Of a DNA stretch of 64,000 bases, positions 13,255 to 33,829 are shown piece by piece. Position numbers and translations under genes: made by a program. A model generated the notes under the pieces. That model ran no database searches. It had not been told where the DNA came from and saw nothing but the letters and a program-made list of their open reading frames with translations. This DNA is from Solimonas sp. SE-A11 (GTDB lineage Bacteria; Pseudomonadota; Gammaproteobacteria; Nevskiales; Nevskiaceae): the NCBI RefSeq assembly GCF_030345715.1, contig NZ_JAUASX010000003.1, forward strand, positions 153,276 through 217,275. The letters run 5' to 3'. Within the stretch, counting starts at the first letter, position 1. Each line of letters starts with the position of its first letter.

Positions 13255-13362
13255 AAAGACGGGAATCGGGAATGGGGCATCGGGAATCGTAGAAGCCACA
13301 GGTTCAGATTCCTGATGACCCGTCTTTAACGATTCCCCATTCCCCATTCCCGATTCCCGGCT
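13255..13362. repeat. GGGAATC/GGGAATG iterative inverted repeat, copy 1
   Basis: The left arm has AAAGACGGGAATCGGGAATG and the right arm the complementary ATTCCC-rich iterations ending near 13362. AAAGACGGG (13255-13263) pairs exactly with CCCGTCTTT (13319-13327). The left arm closely matches 20890-20925. It begins immediately after a stop codon and fills the spacer before the acyl-CoA ligase gene. Confidence 0.8.
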
Positions 13363-13366
13363 TCCC

Positions 13367-18164: not shown

Positions 18165-18198
18165 TGGCCGGCAACGCTGAGAGCTTTAAAGAGGTGGC

Positions 18199-18362
18199 GC
18201 CATCCATGGTGGGACAGCAGCTACCTGAATAGCCCCCCGGGCATGTTCGGCTTGCTTTGGCATGACATCGAGTCATGCCTCAGCGAGGCCAAGCATTCCA
18301 TGGCCGCCCGCGATGCCCAGCAGGCGATGCCATTCAGGCATTGCCTAAGCGCTGGGCATCGC
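18199..18362. repeat. Modular hairpin repeat, unit 1 (overlaps the pirin stop codon)
   Basis: Left module GCCATCCATGGTGGGAC, then ACCTGAATA. Stem-loop A is GGCATGAC/GTCATGCC (18259-18279) with imperfect outer arms at 18243-18251 and 18288-18296. It is followed by GGCCGCCC. Stem-loop B has an outer 12-bp perfect stem GCGATGCCCAGC (18310-18321) with 18351-18362, and an inner 10-bp stem with one mismatch (18322-18331 with 18337-18346) around an ATTCA loop. Related units occur at 32813-33099. Confidence 0.85.
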
Positions 18363-19265
18363 CCACGGCGGCAACGGCGCCACCAGCCTCGCTCCGTCAT
18401 ATCCCGTCACCTTGCCGAAGTATTCCGCCTCGGCATTCCAGTCGCGGCAGGCTTGCGTCAGCTCATCCTTGGTGCGCGCCACGAAGTTCCACCACATCAG
18501 CGGTGCTTCCTGCATCGGCTCGCCGCCGATCAGCAGCATCACGGCTGGCGCATCGCAGCGCAGCGGCAGGGCATCGCAGCCCTGGCCGAGATAGAGCAGG
18601 GTGCCGGGCGCCAGCACTTCGTCGCGCACCGTCACGCTGCCCTGCAGCACCAGCGCGGCATATTCGAAATTCGGGTCCATCGGGAACTGCGTCTGCGCGT
18701 CGGCGGCGGCGCGCAGCTCCATGCCCACCAGTGGCGTGTGGATTTCGGCGGGAGAGCGCTCGCCCAGCGCAGTGCCGGCCAGCACGCTCACCAGGAAGCC
18801 GTCGTGGCGGGCCTGTGGCAGCTGCGGGTGATGCGCGAAGGCGGGCTCGCCGTGGCGGCGTGACTCCGGCAGGGCGATCCAGAATTGCGCGCCGTGCATG
18901 CCGCCAGGGCGGGGCACCGGCGATTCCTCGGAGTGGCAGATGCCGCGGCCGGCGGTCATCAGGTTCAGCTGGCCCGGCTTGATCGGGCATAGGCTGCCGA
19001 GGCTGTCGCGATGCAGGATCTCGCCCTCCAGCAACCAGGTCACGGTCTGCAGGCCGATATGCGGGTGCGGTCCCACCCGCATGCCCTTGCCGGTCGATAC
19101 GTCGGCAGGGCCGAAGTGGTCCAGGAAGCACCAGGCGCCGACCAGTCGGCGCTGGCGCGTGGGCAGGGCGCGGGCGATGCGCATGCCCTCGCCCAGGGTG
19201 GCGGTGGAGGCTTCGATCCGCTGCGTCAGCGGACCACCATGGTCGTCAGGGAGGATCAGGCTCAT
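18345..19265 (-). CDS. Pirin family protein
   Basis: A 306-residue bicupin of the pirin family. The metal-binding first cupin contains HPHIGLQTVTWLLEGEI and HRDSLGS, followed by CHSEESP. Some bacterial pirins act as quercetin dioxygenases or redox sensors; the role here is unknown. The Met at 19265 is chosen because the preceding 50 in-frame residues are Arg/Pro-rich and pirins start with the following segment. The last codons and the stop (18345-18347) lie inside a dispersed hairpin repeat, so the C-terminus was shaped by that element. It is divergent from the DUF1329 gene. Confidence 0.9.
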   Translation of the reverse strand: MSLILPDDHGGPLTQRIEASTATLGEGMRIARALPTRQRRLVGAWCFLDHFGPADVSTGKGMRVGPHPHIGLQTVTWLLEGEILHRDSLGSLCPIKPGQLNLMTAGRGICHSEESPVPRPGGMHGAQFWIALPESRRHGEPAFAHHPQLPQARHDGFLVSVLAGTALGERSPAEIHTPLVGMELRAAADAQTQFPMDPNFEYAALVLQGSVTVRDEVLAPGTLLYLGQGCDALPLRCDAPAVMLLIGGEPMQEAPLMWWNFVARTKDELTQACRDWNAEAEYFGKVTGYDGARLVAPLPPWAMPSA

Positions 19266-19512
19266 GGGCGGCAGGCTCGCCCAGCCGCGCCGGGGATGCA
19301 AGCGGGAACGATGCGCCAGCATGACAGTCCCATGCCAGGTGGCTATTCCCGACTCATGTTGCAGTGCGGGAGTAGTCGGTTCGGACGAGGCACGAAAAGG
19401 GGTGTTCAATAACATGGCGCAACGCTACGAACTATGATTCTGGTGGCTGTACCGGGCTGACACGAACTCGAAGGGGACGCAGACGTTCCCCGCGTTATCT
19501 GGAGGATATTGG

Positions 19513-20886
19513 ATGAAATTCAAACCCGTACTGGCGTCGTTCCTGCTGGCCTCTGTGGCCGGCATGGCGAGCCAGAGTGTTTCCGCCAAGGTCTCGGCCG
19601 AGAAGGCCGCCGAGCTCGATGGCCCGAAGTTCACCTGCATGGGTGCCGAGAGGGCGGGCAACAAGGACGGCACCATTCCCGAGTACAGCGGCAAGTGGGT
19701 CGGCACCTGGCCGGGCCAGACCAAGCCTTTCGGCTATGAGCCGGGCCCGTACAAGGACGAGAAGCCGGTCTTCTCGATCACGGCGCAGAACTACACCAAG
19801 TACGCGGACAAGCTGACCGAGGGCCAGAAGGCGCTGTTCAAGAAGTACCCGCAGTCCTACAAGATGAACGTGTACCCGACCCACCGCGATTTCGGCCACA
19901 AGCCCTGGGTTTGCGACACCACCAAGAAGAATGCCGTCACTGCCGAAGTGGTCAACGACGGCCTGGGCACCACCGGCATCAGCGGCGCCATCCCGTTCCC
20001 GTTCCCGCAGAACGGCTCGGAGGCGGTCTGGAACATCATCAACCCGCACCGCGCCTACACCGAGCAGGCGGTCTGCGACATCGCTGACGTCTACGCCAAC
20101 GGCAGCGTCGCCTGGGGCCGCAACAAGTTCATGACCCTGAACCCGGGCAACAACCCGGCCAAGCGTGGTTCCTACACCGACAAGATCAACGCCTACTTCT
20201 ACACCGGCTACCTGCTGCCGGAGCGTGACAAGGGCTTCGTCGCTGTCGGCTACCAGCCGAACAACTTCAGCAACGACGCCACGCAGTCCTGGCAGTACCA
20301 GCCCGGCATCCGCCGCGTGCGCCAGGCGCCGGAAGTCTGCTGCGACTACCCGGTTCCGCCCGCCGGCCTGCGTACCGTCGACGACGACTACGTCTTCAAC
20401 GGCTCGCCGGAGCGCTACACCTGGAAGCTGGTCGGCAAGAAGGAAGTGTACGTCCCGTACCACAACTTCAAGATCAACGACCCGGCCCTGAAGTACAAGG
20501 ACATCATCAAGCCGAACACCGTCAACCCCGACTATGTGCGCTACGAGCTGCGCCGCGTCTGGGTGGTCGAGGGCTCGCTGAAGTCCGGCATGCGCCACAT
20601 CTACTCCAAGCGTACCCTGTACGCGGATGAAGACTCCTGGATCGCCCTGTGGGCCGACAACCAGGACGGCCGTGGCCAGCTGTGGCGCGTCGCCTTCGTG
20701 AACTACTTCTACTCGCAGGAATCCGCCACCTGGCACCGCGGCGCGTCGATCTACCACGACCTGACCTCCGGGGCCTATGAGGCCGGCTACCTGACCAACG
20801 AGCGCGGCAAGGACTGGTGGCGCATCAACGTGCCCCTGACCCCGGCCATGTTCACGCCGGAAGCTGCGGCTCGCGGCGGACATTGA
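19513..20886 (+). CDS. DUF1329 family exported protein
   Basis: A 457-residue exported protein with a clear signal peptide ending near VSA/KVS (about residue 25). It contains the family-typical PHRAYTEQAVCDIADVYANG and RRVWVVEGSLKSGMRH segments. DUF1329 proteins are predicted to have a LolA/LolB-like lipid-binding fold and co-occur with DUF1302 proteins. A periplasmic lipid or hydrophobic-ligand carrier role is inference. It has a GGAGGAT ribosome-binding site before the ATG. It is followed by an SDR gene, with a GGGAATC-type repeat in the spacer, and both DUF1302 paralogues are within 16 kb. Confidence 0.87.
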   Translation: MKFKPVLASFLLASVAGMASQSVSAKVSAEKAAELDGPKFTCMGAERAGNKDGTIPEYSGKWVGTWPGQTKPFGYEPGPYKDEKPVFSITAQNYTKYADKLTEGQKALFKKYPQSYKMNVYPTHRDFGHKPWVCDTTKKNAVTAEVVNDGLGTTGISGAIPFPFPQNGSEAVWNIINPHRAYTEQAVCDIADVYANGSVAWGRNKFMTLNPGNNPAKRGSYTDKINAYFYTGYLLPERDKGFVAVGYQPNNFSNDATQSWQYQPGIRRVRQAPEVCCDYPVPPAGLRTVDDDYVFNGSPERYTWKLVGKKEVYVPYHNFKINDPALKYKDIIKPNTVNPDYVRYELRRVWVVEGSLKSGMRHIYSKRTLYADEDSWIALWADNQDGRGQLWRVAFVNYFYSQESATWHRGASIYHDLTSGAYEAGYLTNERGKDWWRINVPLTPAMFTPEAAARGGH

Positions 20887-20889
20887 TGT

Positions 20890-20983
20890 AAAAGACGGGA
20901 ATGGGGAATGGGGAATCGGGAATCGTGAAAGCGGTTCCGGTTCCCCATTTCTTTTGCCTGAACGATTCCCGATTCCCGATTCC
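20890..20983. repeat. GGGAATC/GGGAATG iterative inverted repeat, copy 2
   Basis: AAAGACGGGAATGGGGAATG and further GGGAATC units (20890-20925) face complementary GATTCCC units (20962-20983). It matches the copy at 13255-13362 and likewise starts just after a stop codon and fills the spacer before the next plus-strand gene. Confidence 0.8.
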
Positions 20984-20994
20984 TGGACGAAGTC

Positions 20995-21858
20995 ATGAAA
21001 ACCGCATTCATCACCGGCGCCAACATCGGCCAGGCCAACCTGATCACCAAGGCGCTCGCCGGGCAGGGCTGGAAGGTCTTTGCCGGCGTGCTGCCCGGCG
21101 CACCCACCGACCTGAAGACCGGCGGCAACATCGTCGTGGTCGACCAGGACGTGTCCAAGACCGAATCCGTGCGCGCCAGCGCCGAGATCGTCACCCAGGC
21201 CCTGAACGGTCAGGGCCTCGACCTGCTGATGAACGTGGCCGGCGTGGCCAACGTCGGCGTCGGCGTAGTCGAGGGGGCTGATCTTGCCGCCGTGGAGCGG
21301 CTGTTCAACATCAACATGTTCGGACAGCTGCGCGTGATCCAGGCCTTCCTGCCACTGCTGCGCCGCAATGCGCCGGGCTCGCGCATCGCCAACTACAGCT
21401 CGGGTGCCATCATCGCCAACCCGGTCGGCGCCGGTGCCTACAACATGACCAAGCACGCCATCCACGGCATGACGCTGACGCTGCGCCATGAGCTGGCACC
21501 GCTGGGCATCCAGGTCACCTCCATCATCCCTGGCGGCGTGCTGACCGCCATGTCCGCCAACTCCCATGCCAACACCCTCAAGACCTGGGGCGAGCAGCCG
21601 GCCGACATCCAGAGGGTCTATGAGCCGCTGAAGGGCGTCATGTGCCAGGTGTTGCCCGACATGCTGGAGAAGACCGGCAGCACCCCGGAGCAGGCCCTGG
21701 AAGGCACGCTGGAGATCCTGGCGAAGAAGAAGTGGAAGCCGATGGAGCTGCTGGGCAAGGACGTGAAGCCCATGGGCGTGATGCGCCGGCTGTTCTCCGA
21801 CAGCCAGCTCGAGTCGCTGATGCGCATGACCTTCAAGATCCCGACGCTGAAGGCCTGA
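20995..21858 (+). CDS. SDR-family oxidoreductase
   Basis: A 287-residue short-chain dehydrogenase/reductase. The conserved Ser is in NYSSGAII and the catalytic Tyr/Lys in AYNMTKHAIHG, both intact. The cofactor loop reads TGANIGQAN instead of TGxxxGxG, so the third Gly is replaced, which may change nucleotide preference. The protein also has a longer C-terminal tail than minimal SDRs. It follows the DUF1329 gene on the same strand with a repeat-filled spacer, and ends before a strong bidirectional terminator. Its likely role is hydroxy/keto interconversion of the pathway substrate. Confidence 0.9.
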   Translation: MKTAFITGANIGQANLITKALAGQGWKVFAGVLPGAPTDLKTGGNIVVVDQDVSKTESVRASAEIVTQALNGQGLDLLMNVAGVANVGVGVVEGADLAAVERLFNINMFGQLRVIQAFLPLLRRNAPGSRIANYSSGAIIANPVGAGAYNMTKHAIHGMTLTLRHELAPLGIQVTSIIPGGVLTAMSANSHANTLKTWGEQPADIQRVYEPLKGVMCQVLPDMLEKTGSTPEQALEGTLEILAKKKWKPMELLGKDVKPMGVMRRLFSDSQLESLMRMTFKIPTLKA

Positions 21859-21871
21859 GAGACTCCCAAAG

Positions 21872-21908
21872 AAAGCCCCGGCTTCCGCGAGGAGGCCGGG
21901 GCCTTTTG
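21872..21908. terminator. Bidirectional terminator between convergent genes
   Basis: GCCCCGGC (21875-21882) pairs with GCCGGGGC (21895-21902). It is flanked by an A-rich left side and a TTTT right side, so it can serve the SDR (+) and the flavin reductase (-) transcripts. Confidence 0.85.
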
Positions 21909-21919
21909 CTACGTGCCGT

Positions 21920-22930
21920 TCAGGCGCCGGTCGGGACGGCGGTCTTGGCGTCCGGGGTTTGCCAAAGCAGGCCCGAGCCGGGGTCGATGGCCCCCAGCAG
22001 CCGGTGCAGCAGGGTCTTGAGCATTGCCGCCTCGCCGGGTGCCAGGCGCTCCAGCAGCTGCGATTCCACCGCCTTGGCCGCGGAGATCAGGCGCAGGGCC
22101 AGCGCGCTGCCCTCGTTGGTCAGCTGGAACGCCGGGCCTTCGGCATCGGTGGTGCCGCCCACCGAGCGCGCCAGTCCGCGGCGGATCAGAGCACCGGCAG
22201 CGGCGTCGCTGTGCTCGCCCAGCACGCTGGACATGCCGGTGTCGAGCTCGTCGGCGTTCATGATGCGTTTCAGGGTCAGCGTCGAGAGCAGGTAGAACTC
22301 CTCGTCGCTCAGGCTCTCCTCGGCCAGGGCCTTGCGGATCTGGCTGAAGAACTGGAAATGGCTACGGCCCAGCAGGTAGCCGAGGAAGTCCTCGTTGAAG
22401 CTGCCGGCGAGGGCCGGGTTGCGCGGCTCGCTGCTGCCCTTGTGGGCCGCGTGCGCATAACGACCACTGTGGAACACCAGCGGGGCATTCTCGGCACGAT
22501 CGAAAGCGAGCACCTCGCCGACGAAGATGACGTGGTCGCCACCCTCGTACTGGAAAGCCGTGCGGCACTGGAAGCGCGCATTGCAACCACGCAGCAGCGG
22601 CACGCCGCCCAGGCCTTGCTCGATATCAATGCCGGCGAACTTGTCGATGCCGCGCTTGGCGAAGCGCGCCGAGACGGATTCCTGGTCGGCGGCCAGCACA
22701 TGCACCGCCCAGTTCCCAGCCTTCTGGAAGGCCTCCAGGCTCAGCGAGTTGTTTGCCAGGCTCCACAGCACCAGCGGGGGATTGAGCGAGACCGAATTGA
22801 AGCTGTTGGCCGTCAGCCCCACCTGCGTGCCGTCCGGCGCGCGGGTGGTGATGACGGTCACGCCGGTGGCGAAGGTGCCGAGTGCCTTGCGGAACTCCTG
22901 CGGATCCAGGGGGGCTGCGGTCTGGCTCAT
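21920..22930 (-). CDS. Flavin reductase with C-terminal MarR-like domain
   Basis: A 336-residue fusion. Residues 1 to about 165 are an HpaC-type NAD(P)H:flavin reductase domain, with ALGTFATGVTVITTRAPDG near the N-terminus and GLTANSFNSVSLNPPLV. Residues about 195-336 form a helical MarR-like winged-helix domain. The same arrangement is known in the C1 reductase of Acinetobacter 4-hydroxyphenylacetate hydroxylase, where the C-terminal domain senses the phenolic substrate and controls reductase activity. A two-component monooxygenase partner would be expected, but none lies in the window. The start at 22930 is 5 bp after the DUF1302 stop, so the two are co-transcribed. Confidence 0.85.
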   Translation of the reverse strand: MSQTAAPLDPQEFRKALGTFATGVTVITTRAPDGTQVGLTANSFNSVSLNPPLVLWSLANNSLSLEAFQKAGNWAVHVLAADQESVSARFAKRGIDKFAGIDIEQGLGGVPLLRGCNARFQCRTAFQYEGGDHVIFVGEVLAFDRAENAPLVFHSGRYAHAAHKGSSEPRNPALAGSFNEDFLGYLLGRSHFQFFSQIRKALAEESLSDEEFYLLSTLTLKRIMNADELDTGMSSVLGEHSDAAAGALIRRGLARSVGGTTDAEGPAFQLTNEGSALALRLISAAKAVESQLLERLAPGEAAMLKTLLHRLLGAIDPGSGLLWQTPDAKTAVPTGA

Positions 22931-22935
22931 TCTCG

Positions 22936-24876
22936 TTAGAAGTTGTACTTCGCGGTGAAGCCGACGTTGTCGCGATCGGCGTAGGGGTTGGCCTTGAAGT
23001 CCGGCGTGCCGTAGTAGCCGCTGTAGCTGACGCCCAGCGTGATCTTCTGCAGGTAGGTGAAGTTGAAGCCGATGCTGGCTCGCCAGTCGTCCTCGCCCAT
23101 CTGCGAGCCGAAGCCGGACAGCAGCGAAGACTGGCCCAGCACGGTCTTGGAGTGGGTGACGGGCACCTGCAGGTCCCAGCCGTTGAAGATGTTCTTGCGG
23201 TCGAAGATGAACAGGAAGGAATAGGCCGCGGCTTCCTTGGTATAGGTCAGCTTGTCCGAGCAACTGGTCGGGCCGCAGCCCTCGTCACGGTCGATTACCC
23301 AGTTGTAGCCGAAGTCCGAGACCACGGTGAGGGCGTCCCAGAAGTACTGGGGCCCGATCACGTACAGCGCGTTGACGTTGACCTGGCCGACCTTGGCGCG
23401 TACCGGCGTCGGCACCGGGCCGAGCAGGCCGCCGTCCACGTCCACCAGCACGTCCACGCCGTCGCGGTAGATCAGTTCGCCACCGACGTTGGCACCGAAC
23501 AGGGCCGTGGAGAAGCTCATCGCCGACATGTGGATGCCATCGAAGTACTTCACGTTGTAGGTCACCGGCACCTGCAGGCCCAGTTGCGCGGTGGTGATGT
23601 CCGGGCCGCCCGGCACCGGCGAAGGCAGCAGCAGCGCGGAACCGTAGTTCTGCACCGGAGCTGGCGTGGTGTTGTGGTAGCGCAGGTGGTAGAGGCCGAG
23701 ATTGGTGTTCGGCGTGAGCTGGTACTTCAGGCCCAGGCCGTACTGGCCGTAGTCGCTGGGGCGGATGTCCGGGCCGCGCTGCACGTTGATGTAGCGCGGA
23801 GTGCCGGCCGGCTGGATCGCCTCCAGGTTCGGCAGCGGCAGGTCGGGCAGCAGCGGATCCAGGCGGCCCAGGATGGCGCCCAGCGCGTTGTAGACCGGCG
23901 TACCCACCGTGACGTTGGGCAGCAGCAGGCGGTTGATCAGGTCCAGTGCTTCCGGGATGTCGTCGGACAGCAGGTTCACGTCGGCCAGCTGTGCCAGGTA
24001 TAGCGGGTTGTCGATGCCGTAGATGAACTCGGCGCCGGGGCCCACCACGTCGGCCACGGAGAAGAACTCGCCCACCGGGTTCAGTTCGGTCGGCTTGTAT
24101 TCGAGCTTGTACTGGCCGAGGATCGTCAGGCGATCGTTCAGTGCCAGCTGCATGGAGACCTGGTTCACCGGCAGCAGGATGCTCTTGACGTCGGCGCCCG
24201 GTACGGTCGCCTTGGTGGCGTCGGCAGGCGACTGGGCCAGTGCGATGCCGGCGAAGAACAGGCTCTCGCCCCAGGCGGCGATGTGGCGGCCCACGCGCAC
24301 GTTCAGCGCGGCTTCGTCGGTCAGGTACCAGGAGCCGTAGACGTAGGCGTCGAGCAGGCGCGCACGCTGGCCGTCGTAGTACTCGGCGTCGTCGCTGAAG
24401 CGGTTGGTCGGCAGCTCGGTCTTGTTGATCGTCGCGCCCGGCTGGTCCGGCGCCGGCGAGGTGTTGTCGTTCTTGCGGTGATAGACGTCGTCGTAGAACG
24501 CGTCGCCGCGCAACAGGATGCCGTAGTCGCCGTAGCTCAACTGGACTTCGCCCAGCAGCGACAGGCGATTATTCACCAGCGAGTGCTTCTTGAAGTTGCG
24601 GTTGCCGTCGTCGTAGTTGTTGGACTCGGGCAGCTTCAGGTAATCCGGCAGCGGGATCGAGTCGGCAGGGGCCGTGGCGATGATGCGGTTGTCCGGATCA
24701 TGCAGGCGCATGGCGGCGGAGTAGGCGGCCTGGACCTGGTATTGGCCGTCCATGCCCAGGAAATCGAAGGAGCCGGCCATGGCCGGAAGAGCCGCACCAC
24801 CGAGGAACGCCGCCACCAGCTTCGGACCGTAGGTCCAGCGCGTGCGAGCGCCCTCCATTCCCTGCTTGGACATCAT
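22936..24876 (-). CDS. DUF1302 family outer-membrane-type protein (paralogue B)
   Basis: A 646-residue exported protein, closely similar along its length to the gene at 3591-5528; both contain GRHIAAWGESLFF and ADVKSILLPVNQVSMQLAL. The signal peptide ends near AMA/GSF (about residue 34) and the C-terminus ends in an aromatic KYNF, as in outer-membrane barrels. A strong GAGGGGAG ribosome-binding site precedes the ATG. It is the first gene of a two-gene unit with the flavin reductase. The two paralogues may serve related substrates or one may be induced differently. Confidence 0.85.
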   Translation of the reverse strand: MMSKQGMEGARTRWTYGPKLVAAFLGGAALPAMAGSFDFLGMDGQYQVQAAYSAAMRLHDPDNRIIATAPADSIPLPDYLKLPESNNYDDGNRNFKKHSLVNNRLSLLGEVQLSYGDYGILLRGDAFYDDVYHRKNDNTSPAPDQPGATINKTELPTNRFSDDAEYYDGQRARLLDAYVYGSWYLTDEAALNVRVGRHIAAWGESLFFAGIALAQSPADATKATVPGADVKSILLPVNQVSMQLALNDRLTILGQYKLEYKPTELNPVGEFFSVADVVGPGAEFIYGIDNPLYLAQLADVNLLSDDIPEALDLINRLLLPNVTVGTPVYNALGAILGRLDPLLPDLPLPNLEAIQPAGTPRYINVQRGPDIRPSDYGQYGLGLKYQLTPNTNLGLYHLRYHNTTPAPVQNYGSALLLPSPVPGGPDITTAQLGLQVPVTYNVKYFDGIHMSAMSFSTALFGANVGGELIYRDGVDVLVDVDGGLLGPVPTPVRAKVGQVNVNALYVIGPQYFWDALTVVSDFGYNWVIDRDEGCGPTSCSDKLTYTKEAAAYSFLFIFDRKNIFNGWDLQVPVTHSKTVLGQSSLLSGFGSQMGEDDWRASIGFNFTYLQKITLGVSYSGYYGTPDFKANPYADRDNVGFTAKYNF

Positions 24877-25030
24877 CTTCTCCCCTCAGCCTGCTTTTAT
24901 TAGGAATATGCAGACGTTACCGTAGAGTTCCGGACTGAGCCTAGCCTCACCCGAAAAGATTAGGGGTGTCTCCTGCGAAGCGGGTATGGCGGCCCTCTCG
25001 GAAATCGGGCATCTTGAATGGCGCCTCAGG

Positions 25031-25075
25031 ACAGGCCCTGAAGGCACAGGCTCTGAAGGCACAGGCTCTGAAGGC
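25031..25075. repeat. Tandem 15-mer repeat (ACAGGCTCTGAAGGC x3)
   Basis: Three consecutive 15-base units at 25031-25045, 25046-25060 and 25061-25075; the first has one change. They end 39 bp before the wax ester synthase start, in the leader or promoter of that gene. Confidence 0.95.
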
Positions 25076-25114
25076 TGCGGCACACGATAACGACAAGTCC
25101 TGGGAGAGACCCGC

Positions 25115-26527
25115 ATGCAGTACCTGAGTCCCGTCGATGCCTCCTTCCTGCGCATGGAGTCCAAGCGCACCCCGATGCACGTGGGCGGCATGCTGACCTT
25201 CAAGCTGCCGGACAACGCCTCCCCGGACTTCCTGCGCGACCTGCTGCAGCACATGCGCACGGTGCCCTTCATGCCGCACCCCTTCGACTGCAAGCTGGCC
25301 CGAGGCCGCCTGTCGAAGCTGGCCCCGGCCTGGGTCAAGGCCGACCTCGACATCGACTACCACATCCGCCACTCGGCGCTGCCCTATCCGGGCGGCGAGC
25401 GCGAACTGGGCGTACTGGTGGCGCGTCTGCATTCCCATCCCCTGGACCTCAGTCGCCCGCTGTGGGAGGCCCACCTGATCGAGGGCCTGGAGAACCGGCG
25501 CTTCGCCATCTACTTCAAGGCCCACCACTGCGCCATCGACGGCGTAGGCGGCATGAAGATGGTGCGCAGCTGGCTCAGCGAAGACCCCACCGATATGAGC
25601 GGCCCCGGCCGCCCCCGGGCCGCCGAGACCGCCGAAGCCCCCCGTCCGCAGTCCTGGAAGACCCGCCTGGGCAAGCCCTTCAAGGTGGCCGGCCACCAGA
25701 TCCGCACCCTGCCGGAGCTGATCAAGGTCCTCAAGGAAATGAGCGCCCCGGGGCTGGAGGGTGGCACCCGCGCCGCACTGACGACCCCGCGCAGCCTGCT
25801 CAATCGTGCCATCACCCAGCAGCGCCGCCTGGGCACCCAGCTGCTGGACCTGAAGCGTATCAAGGCGATCAGCGCCGCCACCGGCACCACGGTCAACGAC
25901 GTGTCACTGGCCGTCTGCGGTGGTGCCATCCGCCGCTACCTGCTGGAGAACGGCGCCCTGCCGGAAAAGTCCCTGCTGGCTTCGGTCCCAGTGGCGCTGC
26001 CCCGGCCGGCGGGCAAGGGCGGCAACGCCGTCGCCGGCTTCGTCTGCCCCTTCGGCACCGACCAGACCGACCCGCTCAAGCGCCTGCAGCGCATCAATCG
26101 CGTCACCAGCGTCACCAAGCAGCAGCTGCTGGGGCTGTCGGCCACCGCACTGGAGCAGTTCACGCTGATGGGCCTGTCGCCGCTGCTGCTGGGGCAGATG
26201 GCCGGCGTGCTGTCCAAGGTGCCGCCGTTCTTCAACGTCACCGTCTCCAACGTCGTCGCCTCCAAGGTGCCGCTGTACCTGCGCGGTGCCCAGCTGGAGG
26301 CGATGTACCCCATGTCGATCCTGTTCGACGGCTACGCGCTGAACATCACCCTGGTCGGCTACTGCGACCGCGTGGCCGTCGGCTTCACCGGCTGTCGCGA
26401 CGCGATCCCCAGCCTGCAGAGGCTGGCCGTCTACACCGGCGAGGCCCTGACCGAAATGGAAGAGGCGCTGGCGGCCGCGATGCCGCCGCCGGCCAGCGGC
26501 GCGAAGAAGAAGCGCGCCCGCAGCTGA
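25115..26527 (+). CDS. Wax ester synthase/diacylglycerol acyltransferase (WS/DGAT)
   Basis: A 470-residue bifunctional acyltransferase that makes wax esters or triacylglycerol from acyl-CoA plus fatty alcohol or diacylglycerol. The active-site motif HHCAIDG is at residues 137-143. PLWEAHLIEG precedes it and the TVNDVSLAVCGG motif follows, as in Acinetobacter AtfA. Length fits the family. It links the surrounding CoA-based catabolism to neutral-lipid storage. It is divergent from the DUF1302/flavin reductase unit; three 15-bp tandem repeats lie just upstream and a terminator hairpin follows at 26550. Confidence 0.93.
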   Translation: MQYLSPVDASFLRMESKRTPMHVGGMLTFKLPDNASPDFLRDLLQHMRTVPFMPHPFDCKLARGRLSKLAPAWVKADLDIDYHIRHSALPYPGGERELGVLVARLHSHPLDLSRPLWEAHLIEGLENRRFAIYFKAHHCAIDGVGGMKMVRSWLSEDPTDMSGPGRPRAAETAEAPRPQSWKTRLGKPFKVAGHQIRTLPELIKVLKEMSAPGLEGGTRAALTTPRSLLNRAITQQRRLGTQLLDLKRIKAISAATGTTVNDVSLAVCGGAIRRYLLENGALPEKSLLASVPVALPRPAGKGGNAVAGFVCPFGTDQTDPLKRLQRINRVTSVTKQQLLGLSATALEQFTLMGLSPLLLGQMAGVLSKVPPFFNVTVSNVVASKVPLYLRGAQLEAMYPMSILFDGYALNITLVGYCDRVAVGFTGCRDAIPSLQRLAVYTGEALTEMEEALAAAMPPPASGAKKKRARS

Positions 26528-26549
26528 AGACGGCAGGCGAAAGAGGAAG

Positions 26550-26573
26550 GGGCGGCCTTGGCCGCCCTTTCTT
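26550..26573 (+). terminator. Terminator after the wax ester synthase gene
   Basis: GGGCGGCC (26550-26557) and GGCCGCCC (26560-26567) around a TT loop, followed by TTTCTT. It lies between convergent genes. Confidence 0.85.
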
Positions 26574-27841
26574 CATTCTGGCTTCTTGCGGTAAGTGTGG
26601 ATCGAGATTTCGCCGCCGAGGCCACTGAGGTCGTTGGCGCTCACGTCGACCACCGTATCGCCCTCCAGCGACGTCGCCGTGATCTCGCCGCCCTCGATGC
26701 CCGCGCCCACGGTGGCCACGCTGGTATTGCGGCTGGTCCAGGTCACGTTGTGCCGGATCGGCCGCTCGATGCCGTCACTGAACAGGCCGTAGGCCTGTGC
26801 CTGCAGCGTCTCGCGCAACTCCAGCTGCGCCTTGTCGGTGGACAGCCGCAGGCTCATCAGGTTCAGGTCGCGCGCCTCGATCAGGCGGGTGTCCACGCTC
26901 AGTCCGGCCGACTCCAGCTCGTAGCGGAAGCGGAAGGGCTTCTTGGCGGCCAGGGGCTGGATCAGGCGGCCGGCGCTGTCCGCCGTCTCACTGAAAGTGC
27001 TCTCGTCGCCCTCGATCAGGTCGCGGGTCACCTGCAGCCCCAATTCCTGCGGCGGTGCCGAGCTGTCCTCGAACAAGCCGGAGATGCGCACGTAGTCGCT
27101 ATAGCCCAGCGGCAAGAAGGTGTCGGCCGCCTGTTCGTAGGCCAGCTGCAGCTCGCGCAGGTTGCTGAGCTGCAGTTCCCGCCGCACCGAGCGCCCGCAC
27201 AGCGGCAGCGCCGCCTCCAGCAGGAAACGCGAGTTCACCGGGCCGGTCAGTGCCTGCAGGGCCGAGCCGCTGCGGGTGACTGGGGCACCGGTGGTCAGTA
27301 CCTGCCATGACGCGACGCTGGTCAGGTCCACCGGCACGCTGCTCTCCAGCGTGGTGGTTTCCAGCTTGAAGGTCTGGCTGGTCTGCGGTGCCATGCGTGT
27401 CAGCTCCGGCGTGATGCGCAGCTCGCCGATGGACGTCGCGCTGACGCCGTACTGCGCACGCAGGCCGGCGTAGTCCGCCGTGATGGTGGCCGAGCCCGGC
27501 CGCAGCACGATCACCGTGCCCTGTGCGTAGTACAGCCCCGTGGCGCCCGGGATCGGGATATCGCCGTTGCTGACGATTGCCACGCCCGTATCGTTGCTGC
27601 TCCAGGTGCTGCGTTCCGACACCGATTCCAGCGTGTCGTCGCCTTCGCCGCTGAAGGTGGCGAGGGCCGCCAGCTGCACCGCCGCGCACTCGTAACTCTC
27701 CACCGAATCGCCGCCATAGGCCGAGGTGATCTGGATCTTCACCGGGGCGCGGCCATCGCCGACGCCGCCTGAGCAGGCCGCCAGCGCCAGGAGCGCGGCG
27801 CCGGCCGGAGCCGCCGCCGTCCTCGTTGCCGGTCGCTTCAC
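26573..27841 (-). CDS. Lipoprotein with bacterial Ig-like (Big2-type) domains
   Basis: A 422-residue predicted lipoprotein; the lipobox LAAC places the lipidated Cys at residue 23. The C-terminal part has the Big2-type pattern (NVTWTSRNTSVATVGAGIE, then GGEITATSLEGDTVVDVSA), and a similar STWSSNDTGVAIVSNG region near residues 75-95 suggests a second, N-terminal copy. It starts with GTG whose GTGA overlaps the stop of the NHL-repeat lipoprotein gene, so the two are translationally coupled. Likely an envelope-anchored adhesion or structural protein; no enzymatic motif is seen. Confidence 0.8.
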   Translation of the reverse strand: MKRPATRTAAAPAGAALLALAACSGGVGDGRAPVKIQITSAYGGDSVESYECAAVQLAALATFSGEGDDTLESVSERSTWSSNDTGVAIVSNGDIPIPGATGLYYAQGTVIVLRPGSATITADYAGLRAQYGVSATSIGELRITPELTRMAPQTSQTFKLETTTLESSVPVDLTSVASWQVLTTGAPVTRSGSALQALTGPVNSRFLLEAALPLCGRSVRRELQLSNLRELQLAYEQAADTFLPLGYSDYVRISGLFEDSSAPPQELGLQVTRDLIEGDESTFSETADSAGRLIQPLAAKKPFRFRYELESAGLSVDTRLIEARDLNLMSLRLSTDKAQLELRETLQAQAYGLFSDGIERPIRHNVTWTSRNTSVATVGAGIEGGEITATSLEGDTVVDVSANDLSGLGGEISIHTYRKKPE

Positions 27842-29034
27842 TGGGGGAAGAACAGGATGCGGTTGTTGTTGCGGTCGCTGACGTAGAGCACACCGCTGTA
27901 GATGAACGCGCCCGACGCGCCGCTCAGCGTCGTCTTGGCCGGTGTATCGTCGCTGTCGCCATCCTGGTCCGCGTCGTTGGGCGTGACGGCAGTGAAGCTG
28001 TCCTGACCGTAGACCTCGCCCGCGGCCAGGCCGTTCTCCAGCGGGAAGGCGTTGTAGCGCAGCACGCGGTTGTTGCCGGAATCAGCCACGTAGATGCGGG
28101 TGCCGTCGGAGCCGATGCCGAAGGGTGCGCGCAGGGTGGAGGCCGAGCTGCCCGGCGAGGAACGGCTAAAGCCGCTCTGGCCGATCACGTAGTCGGCCTC
28201 GGCGCTCGACTGCTGCGGGAACAGTGCCCAGTACAGCACGCGGTTGTTGCCGGAGTCCGTCACCAGCAGGCGGAAGCCGTCGCTCCAGACGCCGGCCGGC
28301 TTGTTCATCTCCTCGGCCTCGTCATCCGCCAGGCGGCTGGTGAAGTCCAGCTGGCCCAGCACCAAGTCGGCGGCGGCGCCATTGGCGGTCGGCACGCTGC
28401 TCCAGACCAGCACGCGGTTGTTGTTCTGGTCGGCCACCACCAGGCGCCCGTTGGCGATCACGACCGAGGTCGGGAAGGCCAGGCGCGTCGAGCTGGTGCC
28501 CGAGGTGGAGGAGACGAAGTCGGTCTGGCCCACCACCACGTCCGGCAGGGCGCCAGCGGCGGTCGGGATCGTGTTCCAGATCAGCACGCGGTTGTTGCCG
28601 GAATCGGCCACCACCAGCTTGCCCTCGCCGATGAAGGCGGCGCTGGGCAGCGCCAGACGGTCGCGCGCGGTGGCAGGGGTGTTGCCGGTGGCGCTGGACT
28701 GGCCCAGCACGAAGCTGGCGGCGGTATCCGGGTTGGAGGGGACCGCGGTGAAGCCCAGCAGGCGATTGTTCGCCGTGTCTGCGATGAACAGGCGCGTGCC
28801 GTCGCTGGCGACGTTGCCCAGCGGTTGCGCCAGGGTGTTGCCGGCGGTGGAGGCGCCGCGGTTCGGGGCGCTCTTGGTGTAGTCGGCCTGGCCGTAGAGA
28901 CCGAAGGCCTCGATCAGGTCGAGATCGTCGTCACCGCCGCTGCCACCACCGCAACCCGCCAGCAGGGCCGGCAGTAACAGCAGCAGGGTGGGAACGGCTA
29001 AGCGCAGGCCGCGCGCGGACGGGGTCGCCGACAT
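27838..29034 (-). CDS. NHL-repeat beta-propeller lipoprotein
   Basis: A 398-residue predicted lipoprotein (lipobox LAGC, Cys28) followed by a low-complexity Gly/Asp linker. At least five NHL-type repeats are visible as recurring NNRVLIW/NNRVLVW/GNNRVLRY motifs preceded by variable blades (ADSGNNR, ADQNNNR, SDRNNNR). NHL propellers mediate binding rather than catalysis. It is translationally coupled to the downstream Ig-like lipoprotein (4-bp overlap). Together they look like a two-protein envelope module next to a two-component system. Confidence 0.87.
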   Translation of the reverse strand: MSATPSARGLRLAVPTLLLLLPALLAGCGGGSGGDDDLDLIEAFGLYGQADYTKSAPNRGASTAGNTLAQPLGNVASDGTRLFIADTANNRLLGFTAVPSNPDTAASFVLGQSSATGNTPATARDRLALPSAAFIGEGKLVVADSGNNRVLIWNTIPTAAGALPDVVVGQTDFVSSTSGTSSTRLAFPTSVVIANGRLVVADQNNNRVLVWSSVPTANGAAADLVLGQLDFTSRLADDEAEEMNKPAGVWSDGFRLLVTDSGNNRVLYWALFPQQSSAEADYVIGQSGFSRSSPGSSASTLRAPFGIGSDGTRIYVADSGNNRVLRYNAFPLENGLAAGEVYGQDSFTAVTPNDADQDGDSDDTPAKTTLSGASGAFIYSGVLYVSDRNNNRILFFPQ

Positions 29035-29126
29035 CGATTTCTCCGGGGAATAGTGGGGAGTCCCATGATTTCCCGGACCGTCGCGCTACGGCTGCAAGGC
29101 TTTGTATGGAATTGTGTCGAAGGCGC

Positions 29127-30371
29127 TCAGGCCGTCAGCGGCAGGCACAGTTCCACCGCGAACGGGCGGTCTGCACGGCGCTCGCGCAGTTCCACTTGTG
29201 CGCCATGCGCGGATGCCACGCGCTGTACGATCGCCAGTCCCAGGCCTGCGCCGCGCCCATCCCGCGCGCGGTTGCCGCGCTCGAAGGGCTCGATCAGGCG
29301 CTGCCACTCCTGCCGCTCGATGCCACGGCCATGATCCTCCACGCTCAGGCGCAATTGCTCGCCGTCGCGTCGCGTCACCACGCGTACCGGCGCCAGTCCA
29401 TGGGCGAGGGCGTTATCCGCGAGATTGCGGACCAGGCGCAGCAGCCCCAGGCGGCGCGCGCCCACCTGCAGTCCTCGGCAATCGAGATCCAGCTGCAGGC
29501 CCTCGTGGCGCTGCAGGGCCGTGCGCACCAGCGCGTCGAGCTCCAGGCTTTCCAGCGGCTCGTCCTGCCCGTCACGCACGAAGTCGATGCACTGGTGGAC
29601 GATATGATCGATGTCGCGGATGTCCGCCATCATCGGGTTGAAGTCACCCGGGTGATCGGCCGCATGCAGTTCGATGGCGGCCTGCAGCCGTGCCAGCGGC
29701 GAGCGGATGTCATGCGACAAACCGGCCAGCATCAGCTCGCGCTCGCGCAGGCTGCTGCGCAGCTTCACGCTCATGCGCTGCAGCGCCTCGCCGATCAGGC
29801 GGAACTCCTTGGGCCCACCGGGCGTGACGGAAGGGGGAGCACCTCGCTCGATATCGCCGATGCCCTCGATCAGCCGCCGCACCGGGCGGCGCAGCAGCAG
29901 GGTCAGAAGCAATGCCGCCACCAGCATCAGGATGCCGATGGTGGCGAGATTGACCAAGGTGAAATGCCGGCGCATCGCCTTGATCGCCGCCTCGTGCTCC
30001 GGCGAGGGCACGCCGCTGATGCGCCGTACCACCGGCGGTACACCGGGCTCGCCGGCATCGCTGCGCAATACCTCCACGCGCGTGCGCAGGGGCATCTGGA
30101 AGCCCGAGGCAGGCAGCCCCAGCAGGCCGGTGCCCGGGCCGCCGGCGAAGCCCATGCGGGCCATGCCAGCCACCGGTGTGGCCGGCATGGCCGCAGCGGC
30201 ACCCGCCTCCTCGCGCCGCTCGCCGGTGGGCGGGGGAGGGGGGGCGGGCATCGTGCGGAGCAGCAGGTCGTCCGGCGGAAACACGCGCAGCAGCGCGAAG
30301 TTGAGCAAGGGGCTGGCCAGCAATGCCGCGGCAACGATCAGGCCGACCCAGTTGCGCAGGCTGATGCTCAC
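29127..30371 (-). CDS. EnvZ-type sensor histidine kinase
   Basis: A 414-residue membrane kinase. TM1 spans about residues 8-28 and TM2 about 139-160, enclosing a roughly 110-residue periplasmic sensor with a proline-rich start and an Ala/Gly-rich middle. A HAMP linker follows. The H-box GLSHDIRSPLAR has the phospho-acceptor His at 220. The N-box RNLADNALAHG and a GRGI/GLGLAIV ATPase lid follow. The start is a GTG overlapping the response regulator stop (GTGA), so it is translationally coupled. The signal is unknown. Confidence 0.92.
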   Translation of the reverse strand: MSISLRNWVGLIVAAALLASPLLNFALLRVFPPDDLLLRTMPAPPPPPTGERREEAGAAAAMPATPVAGMARMGFAGGPGTGLLGLPASGFQMPLRTRVEVLRSDAGEPGVPPVVRRISGVPSPEHEAAIKAMRRHFTLVNLATIGILMLVAALLLTLLLRRPVRRLIEGIGDIERGAPPSVTPGGPKEFRLIGEALQRMSVKLRSSLRERELMLAGLSHDIRSPLARLQAAIELHAADHPGDFNPMMADIRDIDHIVHQCIDFVRDGQDEPLESLELDALVRTALQRHEGLQLDLDCRGLQVGARRLGLLRLVRNLADNALAHGLAPVRVVTRRDGEQLRLSVEDHGRGIERQEWQRLIEPFERGNRARDGRGAGLGLAIVQRVASAHGAQVELRERRADRPFAVELCLPLTA

Positions 30372-31096
30372 GGCGCCGCCACCACCGTATGGTCGGGCAC
30401 GAAGATGTAGCCGCGACCCCAGACCGTCTGGATGTAGCGCGGCTCAGCGACATCCGGCTCCAGGATGCGGCGCAGCCGCGACACCAGCAGGTCGATGGAG
30501 CGGGACAGCGTCTCGCCACGGTTGCCGGACACCATGCGGTGCAGCTCGTCGCGGCCCAGCACGCGGCGCGCGTTGAGCGCCAGCGCTTCCAGCAACTGGT
30601 ACTCGCCCGTGGTCAGGCGCACCGGCAGGCCATCGCGCTTCAGCACGCGGCTCCACAGGTCCAGTTCGAATTCTCCGAAGCGCAAGGTCTCGCGGGTGGT
30701 GGGCAATCCAGGCGTGCCGCGCTGCCGCGTGCGACGCAGTACCGAGTGGATGCGTGCCACCAGCTCGCGCGGATTGCAGGGCTTGGCGAGGTAGTCGTCT
30801 GCGCCGACCTCCAGGCCGATGATGCGGTCCACATCGTCGCCGCGCGCCGACAGCATGATCACCGGCGTGGACGGGGCCAGTTCGCGCAGCCGGCGGCACA
30901 GGGCGATGCCGTCGCCGTCCGGCAGCATCAGATCCAGCACGACCAGGTCGTAGGACTCGCGCTGGATGTAGCGCTGGGCGGAGGCGGCGGTGCCGACGCC
31001 CTCGGCGTCGATCCCGTGCTTGACCAGGAAGCCCGCGATCAAGGTGCGCAGGCGCTCGTCATCGTCGACGAGCAAGACTTTGGGGTTCATGGACAT
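30368..31096 (-). CDS. OmpR-family response regulator
   Basis: A 242-residue regulator. The receiver domain has acidic residues DDD at 11-13, the phospho-acceptor Asp55 (VLDLMLPDGDG) and the conserved Lys in LAKPCNP. The C-terminal winged helix ends with YIQTVWGRGYIFVP. It is coupled to the EnvZ-type kinase by a 4-bp overlap. Met1 or Met3 could be the start. It is divergent from the first DUF4382 lipoprotein gene across 150 bp and may regulate it. Confidence 0.93.
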   Translation of the reverse strand: MSMNPKVLLVDDDERLRTLIAGFLVKHGIDAEGVGTAASAQRYIQRESYDLVVLDLMLPDGDGIALCRRLRELAPSTPVIMLSARGDDVDRIIGLEVGADDYLAKPCNPRELVARIHSVLRRTRQRGTPGLPTTRETLRFGEFELDLWSRVLKRDGLPVRLTTGEYQLLEALALNARRVLGRDELHRMVSGNRGETLSRSIDLLVSRLRRILEPDVAEPRYIQTVWGRGYIFVPDHTVVAAP

Positions 31097-31245
31097 GATC
31101 GGACCAGCCTAGGTACGCAATGGAAACGGTGAAAGGGTTTTGCCCGAGCCGGATACAGCCTGATACGAATTGCGACAAATGCGGGGCGGACCCGGATAGG
31201 TGGCGGCCGATACCTTCGCCGCAACTCCTCCATGGCCCCTGCCGA

Positions 31246-32124
31246 ATGCCTGACCCCCTGTCGCTGCAACGCTGTATCCCCCTGCTGGCCTGCCTGCCGC
31301 TGCTGTGCGCCTGCGAGGCCAAGCTCGATGTCGACCTGACGGATGGCCCGATCGACGGGGCCGAGTCGGTCGTACTGCGCCTGACCGGCATCCAGTTGCT
31401 CAAGGACGACGGCAATCGCGTCACCATCAACGTCGATGCCGATGTCGACCTGCTGCAGTACCGCAACGGTTCGACGCTCAGACTGGCCGAGGGCGAGGAG
31501 GTTCCCGCCGCCCGCTATGTCGGCGCCCAACTGGTGTTTGCGGACAGTGGTTCCTACGTGGGGCGCAGCGATGGCAGCCAGGTCCCCATCGTCGCCCCCG
31601 GGACCCAGGCGTACGCCGACCTGGACCTGAATGTCGGCGACGACGACGAGGCCGGCTTGCTGCTGGACCTGGAACTGCGCTTCTCGCTGGACGACCAGCT
31701 CTCCACCCTGGGCAACTACGCCCTGGTCCCGGTCCTGCGGGCCATGGACCCGGAGGATGCCGGCGAGGTCTCCGGCAAGGTCGCCAACGCCCTGGTCGAG
31801 GACGCCGACTGTCGCCAGGGGCGCAGCCTGCTGCGCGGGGTCAGCGTCTACGCCTACGAGGGTACCGGCGTTACCCCCGTGGACTACGCCCGCAACCGGA
31901 TCACCGGCATCCAGCCGGTATCGGCTGCCGCGGTCTACGACGACGGCGACGGTGGCTACCGCTACCGCTTCGCCTACCTGCCCGAGGGCGACTACACCCT
32001 GGCGCTGACCTGCGACGCCGACAGCGAGCGCCCGGCCATCGTGGACGACCTGGGGTTCCTGCAGCGCCGCAACGCCACCGTGAACGCCGGCGAGACCCGC
32101 AGCATTGCCTTCACCGCCGAATAG
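31246..32124 (+). CDS. DUF4382-type lipoprotein (paralogue A)
   Basis: A 292-residue predicted lipoprotein. The Met at 31246 is chosen because it gives a signal peptide with a lipidated Cys at residue 23 (LCAC); the longer in-frame reading begins with a charged, Cys-containing leader. The domain has LDVDLTDGPIDGAESVVLRL and EGEEVPAARY, the DUF4382 style. A C-terminal part (YRYRFAYLPEGDYTLALTC) resembles a carboxypeptidase-regulatory-like beta sandwich. A clear paralogue is at 33830-34702. Function unknown. The EF-hand gene follows after 9 bp. Confidence 0.8.
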   Translation: MPDPLSLQRCIPLLACLPLLCACEAKLDVDLTDGPIDGAESVVLRLTGIQLLKDDGNRVTINVDADVDLLQYRNGSTLRLAEGEEVPAARYVGAQLVFADSGSYVGRSDGSQVPIVAPGTQAYADLDLNVGDDDEAGLLLDLELRFSLDDQLSTLGNYALVPVLRAMDPEDAGEVSGKVANALVEDADCRQGRSLLRGVSVYAYEGTGVTPVDYARNRITGIQPVSAAAVYDDGDGGYRYRFAYLPEGDYTLALTCDADSERPAIVDDLGFLQRRNATVNAGETRSIAFTAE

Positions 32125-32133
32125 GAGTTCCCC

Positions 32134-32613
32134 ATGCTGACCATCAACCCCTCCCTGGAAGTCGGCCTGTTGCTGCTCGCCTTGCTGGCCCTGTCGGGCG
32201 CCGCCCTGGCCCAGCCGCCGTTGCCGGCCGACTACGACGAGAACGGCCAGGTCGACCGCAACGAGTGGCGCGAGGGCACCGCCGCCCGCTTCCGCTTCGC
32301 CGATCGCAACTCCGACGGCTATCTTGACGCCTCCGAGCAGAAGCAGTTCGGTCCGCGCCGCTTCGTGCTGCGCCTGGATGGCCCTGGTGGCGGGCCCCCG
32401 ACCGGACAGGGCCAGGATCGCCCACGTCCTCCACCGGGCATGGTGCGCGCCCACGGCGTCTCGCCGCAGGCCCCGCGGGACCGTAACGGCGACGGCCTGC
32501 TGGACCTGGCCGAGGTGCAGGCCCAGGCCGACGAGGCTTTCCCGCGGATGGATGTGGATGGCAATGGAGTGCTGGAGGCGGATGAACTGATGCCGCCGCC
32601 GCCGGCGTTTTAG
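32134..32613 (+). CDS. Exported EF-hand calcium-binding protein
   Basis: A 159-residue exported protein with a signal peptide (residues 1-26, ALA/QPP). Four EF-hand-type loops are visible: residues 33-44 (DYDENGQVDRNE), 57-68 (DRNSDGYLDASE), 116-127 (DRNGDGLLDLAE) and 140-151 (DVDGNGVLEADE). Each has acidic residues at positions 1, 3, 9 and 12, apart from conservative variants. A proline-rich linker separates the two pairs. It has an AGGAG ribosome-binding site and is co-transcribed with the DUF4382 lipoprotein. A role as periplasmic calcium sensor or buffer for the neighbouring two-component systems is inference. Confidence 0.9.
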   Translation: MLTINPSLEVGLLLLALLALSGAALAQPPLPADYDENGQVDRNEWREGTAARFRFADRNSDGYLDASEQKQFGPRRFVLRLDGPGGGPPTGQGQDRPRPPPGMVRAHGVSPQAPRDRNGDGLLDLAEVQAQADEAFPRMDVDGNGVLEADELMPPPPAF

Positions 32614-32812
32614 CTCGTTGCCCTGACACTGCCTCTCCCCGCTTGTGGGTAGAGGGTTGGCGAGGGCATGGACGCCCGAGCTAGGGCAACGCATGGAGCA
32701 GTTGCCGAGGTGAGGGGCAGGAGGGTCAAATTGTCAGCCCAAGCCGTTCGCCCTGAGCCTGTCGAAGGGTGCACGAGCTCGGGCGACTATCCGGGCGATG
32801 AGAAACGGAATA
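32614..32812. other. Intergenic stretch with short common repeats; no gene seen
   Basis: This begins the 476-bp gene-free gap that runs to 33089. It holds a CCTCTCCCC...GGGTAGAGGG element near 32632-32660 and the CGTTCGCCCTGAGCCTG element annotated separately. The rest of the gap is filled by modular hairpin units 2 and 3. No credible coding sequence. Confidence 0.6.
32741..32777 (+). repeat. Dispersed repeat of the CCGTTCGCCCTGAGCCTGTC type
   Basis: CCGTTCGCCCTGAGCCTGTC followed by GAAGGG is a motif I know from many proteobacterial intergenic regions. It is a relative of the CCGTTCATGCCGAG elements at 2520 and 18104, sharing the CCGTTC...GAG...TCGA skeleton. Confidence 0.6.
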
Positions 32813-32965
32813 GCCATCCCTGGCGGGACCTTGGTTACCTGAAGGATCCCTGGGCATGTTTGGCTTGCTTCGGCATGACATCGAGTCATGCCTCAGCGAT
32901 GCCAAACATTCCATGGCCACCCGTTGATCTAGTGCTGGCGATGAGATTTGGTCATCGGGTCAACG
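32813..32965. repeat. Modular hairpin repeat, unit 2
   Basis: Left module GCCATCCCTGGCGGGAC and TTACCTGAAGGA. Stem-loop A is GGCATGAC/GTCATGCC (32872-32892) with perfect 9-bp outer arms ATGTTTGGC (32856-32864) and GCCAAACAT (32901-32909). Then GGCCACCCG and a degenerate stem-loop B (GCGATGA with TCATCG, and GTTGA with TCAAC) to about 32965. Close match to 18199-18362. Confidence 0.85.
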
Positions 32966-32982
32966 TGCCGAACAGTAGGGGC

Positions 32983-33099
32983 GCCGTCCATGGCGGGACT
33001 TGGGCCACCTGATTAAACCCCTGGGCGGCCATCCATGGCCGCCCGCTCATCTGACGCTGGCCATGCCATTTAGGCATGGCCAAAGCGCGTCAGATGAGC
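32983..33099. repeat. Modular hairpin repeat, unit 3 (overlaps the gstA stop codon)
   Basis: Left module GCCGTCCATGGCGGGAC and ACCTGATTA. A short perfect hairpin GGGCGGCC/GGCCGCCC (33023-33044) replaces stem-loop A. Stem-loop B has an outer perfect 13-bp stem GCTCATCTGACGC (33045-33057) with 33087-33099, and an inner perfect 10-bp stem TGGCCATGCC (33058-33067) with 33073-33082, around an ATTTA loop and with an AAGC spacer. The gstA stop at 33090-33092 is inside. Confidence 0.9.
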
Positions 33100-33698: not shown

Positions 33699-33829
33699 GG
33701 GATCTCCTGGGGTGTTCTGGTTAGTGGGATGGAGCGCAGCATAGGCCCCTGCCCGGAGCAGCAAAACCGGAATTTCCTGAAGGGGACCTTCAAAATGACT
33801 GAACCCCCGCTGGCCGCTACACTCGCTCC

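Follow-up and report, generated by a model that had tools for sequence, protein, structure and literature searches.

Apparent rewriting of gene ends by arm-to-arm copying in a dispersed hairpin element of Nevskiaceae

How a stem can remain perfectly paired when its sequence is not retained is a question raised by hairpin units at the 3' ends of pirin and gstA in Solimonas sp. SE-A11, within the 64,000-nucleotide stretch analyzed here (contig NZ_JAUASX010000003.1, positions 153,276 to 217,275; the window). A preliminary description of this DNA had recognized three such units, each with a stem-loop called hairpin B, and had proposed a mobile terminator-like or RNA element that inserts at gene ends. 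Units 1 and 3 were confirmed in the window where that description placed them. On the plus strand, B reads gcgatgcccagc / aggcgatgcc / attca / ggcattgcct / aagc / gctgggcatcgc in unit 1 and gctcatctgacgc / tggccatgcc / attta / ggcatggcca / aagc / gcgtcagatgagc in unit 3, so that the outer arms are fully complementary within each unit and unrelated in sequence between the two, as had been noted. The natural reading strand of the units is the minus strand, on which the order is gene end, hairpin B, hairpin A, and a tail with a second ATGGAY hairpin. A long form of the unit carries an extra B-like hairpin within hairpin A, and a short form is without it.

To describe the units further, use was made of R1, a covariance model of 118 positions derived from 15 short-form copies, among them unit 3 but not unit 1. 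Unit 1, a long form, lies at the 3' end of pirin (18197-18363, minus strand, as are all features of the units given below; R1 match of 86.3 bits, E 2.5e-18). The gene-side outer arm of its B, GCGATGCCCAGC (18351-18362), consists of the pirin codons A-M-P-S, and the far outer arm (18310-18321) is the exact inverse. Unit 3, a short form designated p, lies at the 3' end of gstA (32981-33099; 126.3 bits, E 1.8e-27). Its gene-side outer arm, GCTCATCTGACGC (33087-33099), holds the gstA codons L-I-stop and has an exact inverted copy in the far outer arm, GCGTCAGATGAGC (33045-33057), which is followed by hairpin A, GGGCGGCC-ATGGAT-GGCCGCCC (33023-33044), and by a tail with the small hairpin CGCC-ATGGAC-GGCG (32981-33022). 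Both stop codons were thus correctly assigned to B, that of pirin at 18345-18347 (open reading frame 18345-19415; Pfam Pirin) and that of gstA at 33090-33092 (open reading frame 33090-33764; Pfam GST_N/GST_C). Folding of B as RNA gave -40.4 kcal/mol for unit 1 (z -7.4) and -44.5 kcal/mol for unit 3 (z -9.7), and none of 200 shuffled sequences was equally stable in either case.

Unit 2 did not prove to be an intact unit. This long form stands in tandem behind unit 3 (32811-32968; R1 match of 30.2 bits over 32811-32910), and its B is broken by loss of the gene-side arm. The whole stretch folded at -10.2 kcal/mol (z -0.32), a stability equaled by 72 of 200 shuffles, and a piece ending two bases before the arm folded at -9.0 (z -2.14). 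Only the far arm of B survives, GCACTAGATCAAC (32923-32935), and it is the inverse of the gstA end of another species (genome G003 below), not of the gstA end in the window.

The units belong to a family of hairpin elements that is dispersed through Nevskiaceae and located at the 3' ends of genes. The unit 1 stretch gave 31 matches in its own genome at E ≤ 0.01, the query included, and R1 gave at least 52, at least 91, at least 41, and at least 59 at the same threshold in four Solimonas genomes, one per species (labeled G000, G001, G002, and G003, with G001 being S. fluminis). At E ≤ 1e-4, R1 had matches in 48 of 58 genomes of Nevskiaceae, the family to which NCBI assigns Solimonas, and in 11 of the 12 genera. 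The covariance-model search of the genome and its relatives that had been suggested therefore recovered a family. The two outcomes that were to refute the original proposal, a lack of further copies or copies with non-complementary B stems, did not occur: additional copies were recovered, the majority with complementary B stems. In an alignment of 108 distinct rows, drawn from 100 chosen loci and mostly from copies already known to match, both-side changes were present at 12 of 12 outer pairs of B, with 91.6% of cells paired. Pairing of the whole structure was 94.9% compared with 79.6% in shuffles, and it dropped to 27-53% after sliding of the partners; because the alignment was fitted to the model, these figures are tilted in its favor, and the shuffles ignore relatedness. 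A separate parse of 106 of the 108 rows, with two tandem units that have no gene-side arm left out, gave 9.38 Watson-Crick pairs of 11 for arms with their own partner and 6.53 when partners were swapped. In 17 copies with unusual arms, the corresponding values were 8.71 and 5.92; for 11 of these copies, the own partner outdid all except two or fewer of the others. In the other genera inspected, as judged by eye, copies differ little in GGGTGA, the tip region, and hairpin A, while about eight stem bases vary between copies and complementarity is largely kept. A 5' GGGTGA and a 3' CACC were observed in the element, the ends of which are roughly set.

The relation of the element to genes is oriented. 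A likely gene end was present within 300 bases on the B side of 86 of 105 copies, and 51 of these 86 stops fell in the interval from -20 to +14 relative to the inner hairpin. For the tail side, where the element end was set at a fixed distance that is wrong for long forms, the corresponding numbers were 70 of 105 and 10 of 70. These 105 copies were retained from 126 hairpin matches after the removal of unrelated hits, reverse readings, and hairpins internal to long forms, and the stops, some of them doubtful, were called from open reading frames and a rule on third-codon-position GC content (GC3) rather than from annotation. By this rule, the stop lies 16 bases ahead of the inner hairpin, at the TGA of GGGTGA, in seven genes, and at +9, in the loop, in 13. 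Among 187 of 191 parsed sequences, GGG occurred within 11 bases of the start of the gene-side stem in 161, compared with 27-36 of 187 in windows 30-120 bases upstream, and GGGTGA was present in 109. The element was also often observed within another intergenic repeat, CCCTCTCCCGC..GCGGGAGAGGG in type (loci L009, L012, L017, L022, L319, L324, L327, and L329). In a gene with QLHMDKG near its end, the B hairpins of G001 (L302) and G003 (L103) are wholly different and each is paired; the C-terminal tails after QLHMDK are GRIGTGEPL and GALVEGVVS, respectively.

In copies that overlap genes, the gene-side (near) arm resembles host coding DNA, and the opposite (far) arm is its inverted copy. The evidence that the near arm is of host origin is strongest for an efflux-protein gene, followed by gstA, bacterioferritin, and engB. 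The efflux-protein gene is free of the element in G003, where it reads GGTGGGTGGAGCCAGGGCGAG (GGTGGGTGGAGCCAG at the arm) and continues to VVAVR-stop. In G000, where the site is filled, GGTGGGTGGAGTCAG leads into the hairpin and the protein ends in SQRV. The far arm in G000 is GCGCTGACTCCAC, ending in CTGACTCCAC, which is the inverse of host GTGGAGTCAG, and nine of the ten host arm bases are already present in the empty site.

The gstA site is empty in G001 (GGCTTGATCAAGTGA) and G002 (GGCTTGATCAAGTAG) and filled in G000 (GGGCTCATCTGACGC) and G003 (GGGTTGATCTAGTGC), with each filled gene having its own end mirrored exactly; the G003 end, GGGTTGATCTAGTG, agrees by eye with empty G001 in 12 of 14 bases. 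Both G000 and G003 contain two units in tandem, and the B arms are swapped between the species, such that the second unit in each bears a far arm that fits the gene end of the other. Inversion was rejected as the cause of this p/q swap because the short tail keeps the same orientation in both species, and recombination of two haplotypes between tandem units would fit. Another tandem array, L044 in S. fluminis, has later units that start at the inner hairpin after CCCCGCATCCC and are without gene-side arms; as seen, their far arms match the single gene-side arm of the first unit.

At bacterioferritin, which is empty in G000 and G002 and filled in G001 and G003, the near arm is like G000 in seven of nine bases and is mirrored with one wobble pair, and a native terminator lies past the element. 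The engB site is empty in G002 and filled in G000, G001, and G003, and the near arm of G001 equals G002 in 10 of 15 bases. At pirin, empty in G002, one stem is shared by G000 and G003 and another is present in G001. All that is clearly common to G002 is TGGGC, right at the start of the arm, and the two stems may derive from one insertion or from two. For a protease-like gene, the genomes encode a common protein end (G, R or K, I or V, L, R, stop) with bases that are not well conserved. The near arm of G002 there encodes R-I-L-R-stop, the others having (K)(V or I)LR-stop, and is mirrored through the inner stem with one mismatch; its bases agree with those of G003, G001, and G000 in 8, 9, and 12 of 18, respectively. 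Gene ends are mirrored over nearly the whole stem at L100 (20 bp uninterrupted) and L071, both of which are without an empty relative. The filled and empty orthologous sites support the mobility that had been suggested for an element at gene 3' ends.

Orthologous copies reveal how the arms change. In eight comparisons, 13 stem pairs were changed on both arms and 5 on one arm, and thus block changes that leave the two arms complementary, as expected of a template-switch site, predominated. A third pirin pair was dropped from this count and would bring it to 18 and 5. The arms were jointly changed at three loci. The hairpin also carries a mark of direction, a GCTTT bulge opposite T, which was on the gene side in 124 of 191 distinct parsed sequences (a set in which a small number of inner hairpins, tandem units, and reverse readings remain). 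In engB of S. fluminis, the bulge is gone and the stem is a 22-bp perfect palindrome with the loop GTTTA, the inverse of which, TAAAC, is nearly the TAAAT of its relatives. At nine loci (L010, L018, L083, L084, L094, L119, L132, L141, and L299), the bulge is lost and A stands opposite T, as if the far arm had served as the template. One locus, L022, carries AAAGC in its far arm and looks as if the near, bulged arm had been copied; its outer stem is otherwise poorly paired. Template switching between inverted repeats leaves homogenized arms and an inverted spacer, according to two reports (PMC8604942, PMC7202029), and can mimic compensatory evolution according to a third (PMC8794818).

These observations can be explained by the following model, which we consider probable: B is a template-switch (quasipalindrome) mutational hotspot, at which gene ends serve as template for an inverted arm and are at times rewritten themselves. 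During replication, the B hairpin in DNA would stall or fold the nascent strand; the strand would fold at the conserved tip, and one arm would serve as template for the other. Given that the near arm is often host coding sequence, the far arm would turn into the inverse of the gene end, and copying in the reverse direction would at times rewrite the last codons and stop of the gene. B would then stay paired while its sequence drifts because one arm is copied from the other. The process is inferred to be replication-borne; it may continue after insertion and may run in either direction, and selection on RNA would be secondary rather than the main cause. The conservation of structure without sequence that had been described is therefore borne out as pairing, but need not signify selection on RNA, because in gene-overlapping copies the variable arm is host-like and its partner is the inverse.

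Several observations weigh against the template-switch model. All both-arm changes come from three loci (seven at gstA, five at pirin, and one at bacterioferritin), and engB in G000 and G003 shows two one-arm changes and no both-arm change. The arm comparison covers 9 of 23 flank-matched pairs, apparent different insertions or architectures having been left out, and one genome per species, so that no single event was caught. The loop of the S. fluminis engB copy is a single case and is one base off the exact inverse, and an automatic scan classed no copy as right-bulged, L022 having been found by pattern. The pairing statistics carry the dependence on the model and on relatedness noted above. 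Six of the 17 unusual-arm copies were not distinctive: for five of them, 55-76 of the 105 other partners did as well or better, and for L002, 8 did. Two of these six are the additional hairpin of a long form, which the parse had taken as B. Pairing is incomplete in some stems that combine an odd near arm with a far arm close to the consensus (L016, L017, L009, and L002). The gstA p/q swap requires recombination in addition. In G000, the stop of the protease-like gene is followed by a decayed look-alike hairpin (L185), the far side of which (GCGCAGGAT) roughly mirrors the different gene end of G000 itself (ATTCTGCGC), and at this gene G001 holds a tail-like fragment in the opposite direction; for these reasons only G003 is cleanly empty. 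Finally, template switching alone does not account for the conserved tip, hairpin A, and tail, which still require selection or a mobility need.

A possible, if rather doubtful, alternative is that the element acts as an mRNA 3' hairpin, in stability or protein binding, with B kept paired by single compensatory substitutions and its outer sequence free to vary. The covariation of all 12 outer pairs, with 91.6% of cells paired, would be expected on this account, as would the likeness of the tip and hairpin A across the genera seen, the sense placement of copies at gene ends (51 of 86 B-side stops close to the inner hairpin compared with 10 of 70 on the tail side), and the occurrence of one-arm changes and partly paired stems. 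However, the near arms at the efflux-protein gene and gstA are mostly already present in element-free relatives, and therefore about ten adjacent substitutions in the far arm would be needed, and neither the polarity of the bulge nor the nearly inverted loop is predicted. The mirrored arm might instead belong to the act of landing. We doubt, on balance, that this is a mobile element that on insertion duplicates its target in inverted rather than direct form (a "mirror target-site duplication") and that later keeps rewriting gene ends. Fold-back copying would then give the order host gene end, hairpin tip, mirrored gene end, and element body, and each landing would provide genes with new stop codons and C-terminal tails. 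That the inverted host copy stems from insertion itself, through fold-back priming at a cut host end, and not from later correction, we regard as unlikely. GGG at the gene-side stem boundary (161 of 187 copies, well above the upstream windows) does resemble a fixed start, and gene-end letters reach deep into the inner stem at L100, L071, and the G002 copy in the protease-like gene. Nevertheless, GGGTGA is present in 109 of 187 copies, and so in most cases the element seems to arrive with an arm of its own; an odd near arm is combined with a consensus far arm in L016, L017, and L009; and no transposase was found, with no R1 match at E ≤ 1 at either of the two Y1_Tnp genes of G000, the one genome in which a REP-associated tyrosine transposase (RAYT) partner was sought.

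By comparison, a bidirectional intrinsic terminator or terminator-like mobile element, as originally suggested, is highly improbable. The hairpins are strong, GC-rich, and located at gene ends, and the tail half of unit 1 has one weak 5-pair pattern site (18237-18250, plus strand; 0.2 expected). No T-run follows A or B, though, and the pattern scan returned no sites in B and, in the region of units 2 and 3, a single site outside the units. Because the native intrinsic terminator of bacterioferritin remains beyond the element, the element is not a terminator.

Searches for a known identity gave no family in Rfam that accounts for the units. In particular, RF01731 (TwoAYGGAY RNA) had no match in unit 1 at E ≤ 1 or in 19 loci at E ≤ 0.1. 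A TwoAYGGAY RNA is present elsewhere in the window (2240-2360, plus strand; 50 bits against a gathering score of 43) and shares a GGCC-ATGGAT-GGCC hairpin with the element; R1 matched this site weakly (14.1 bits, E 0.08). Integron attC sites, which were also considered, are defined by RYYYAAC and GTTRRRY core sites and act with an integrase.

Among known systems, quasipalindrome or template-switch mutations in E. coli, yeast, and RNA genes resemble the element in block homogenization of inverted-repeat arms, spacer inversion, and multi-base compensatory change (PMC8604942, PMC7202029, PMC8794818). The sites they describe are resident inverted repeats, whereas here the hotspot would ride a dispersed element that lands on gene ends, and host coding DNA supplies one arm at several loci. 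Repetitive extragenic palindromic (REP) sequences, the GTAG- and CGTC-tagged repeats associated with RAYTs, are likewise small, many-copy, and mainly downstream of genes, and often supply the stop codon of the flanking open reading frame (PMC3733652). In contrast to REPs, the element is a larger composite of 118 model positions, its outer stem is host-like, no copy lies beside the two RAYT-type genes of G000, and the GTAG tag that marks REP/RAYT repeats is present in only 30 of 176 parsed tails. TwoAYGGAY RNA has hairpins with AYGGAY loops, as do A and the tail, and is listed for gamma-Proteobacteria among others in PMC2864571, but its model does not match the copies examined. In the part of PMC2775950 that concerns IS605 stem-loops at Borrelia lipoprotein gene ends, the similarity also overlaps the 3' coding end and also shows compensatory changes; the Borrelia stem is near-identical to the insertion sequence's own stem, and no inverted host copy is described in that part of the account.

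Dispersed gene-end hairpins that supply stop codons are already known as REPs (PMC3733652), and template switching is likewise known. No repeat family that mirrors host gene ends locus after locus was found in the open-licence literature searched, nor was anything on Solimonas repeat elements, Nevskiaceae intergenic inverted repeats, or template switching with REPs; since open-licence papers alone were covered, this absence is weak evidence. Stem covariation is usually read as proof of a functional RNA helix. Here, the strong covariation of an entire repeat family could have arisen by DNA copying, templated by host coding sequence, and the family therefore offers a natural test of the shares of mutation and selection in stem covariation. 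It also points to possible block rewriting of bacterial gene 3' ends, stop codons, and C-terminal tails, for which many loci and some empty-site relatives are available.

The window contains further repeats. Direct and inverted copies of another repeat, of the type GGGAATCGGGAATGGGG, occur at 13254-13363 and 20890-20983. The segments 3801-5467 and 22997-24657 form an inverted pair, ∼70-87% alike in pieces over ∼1.6 kb, and are likely paralogous genes on opposite strands. At 28060-28816, repeat copies are arranged at a spacing of 174 bases or multiples thereof.

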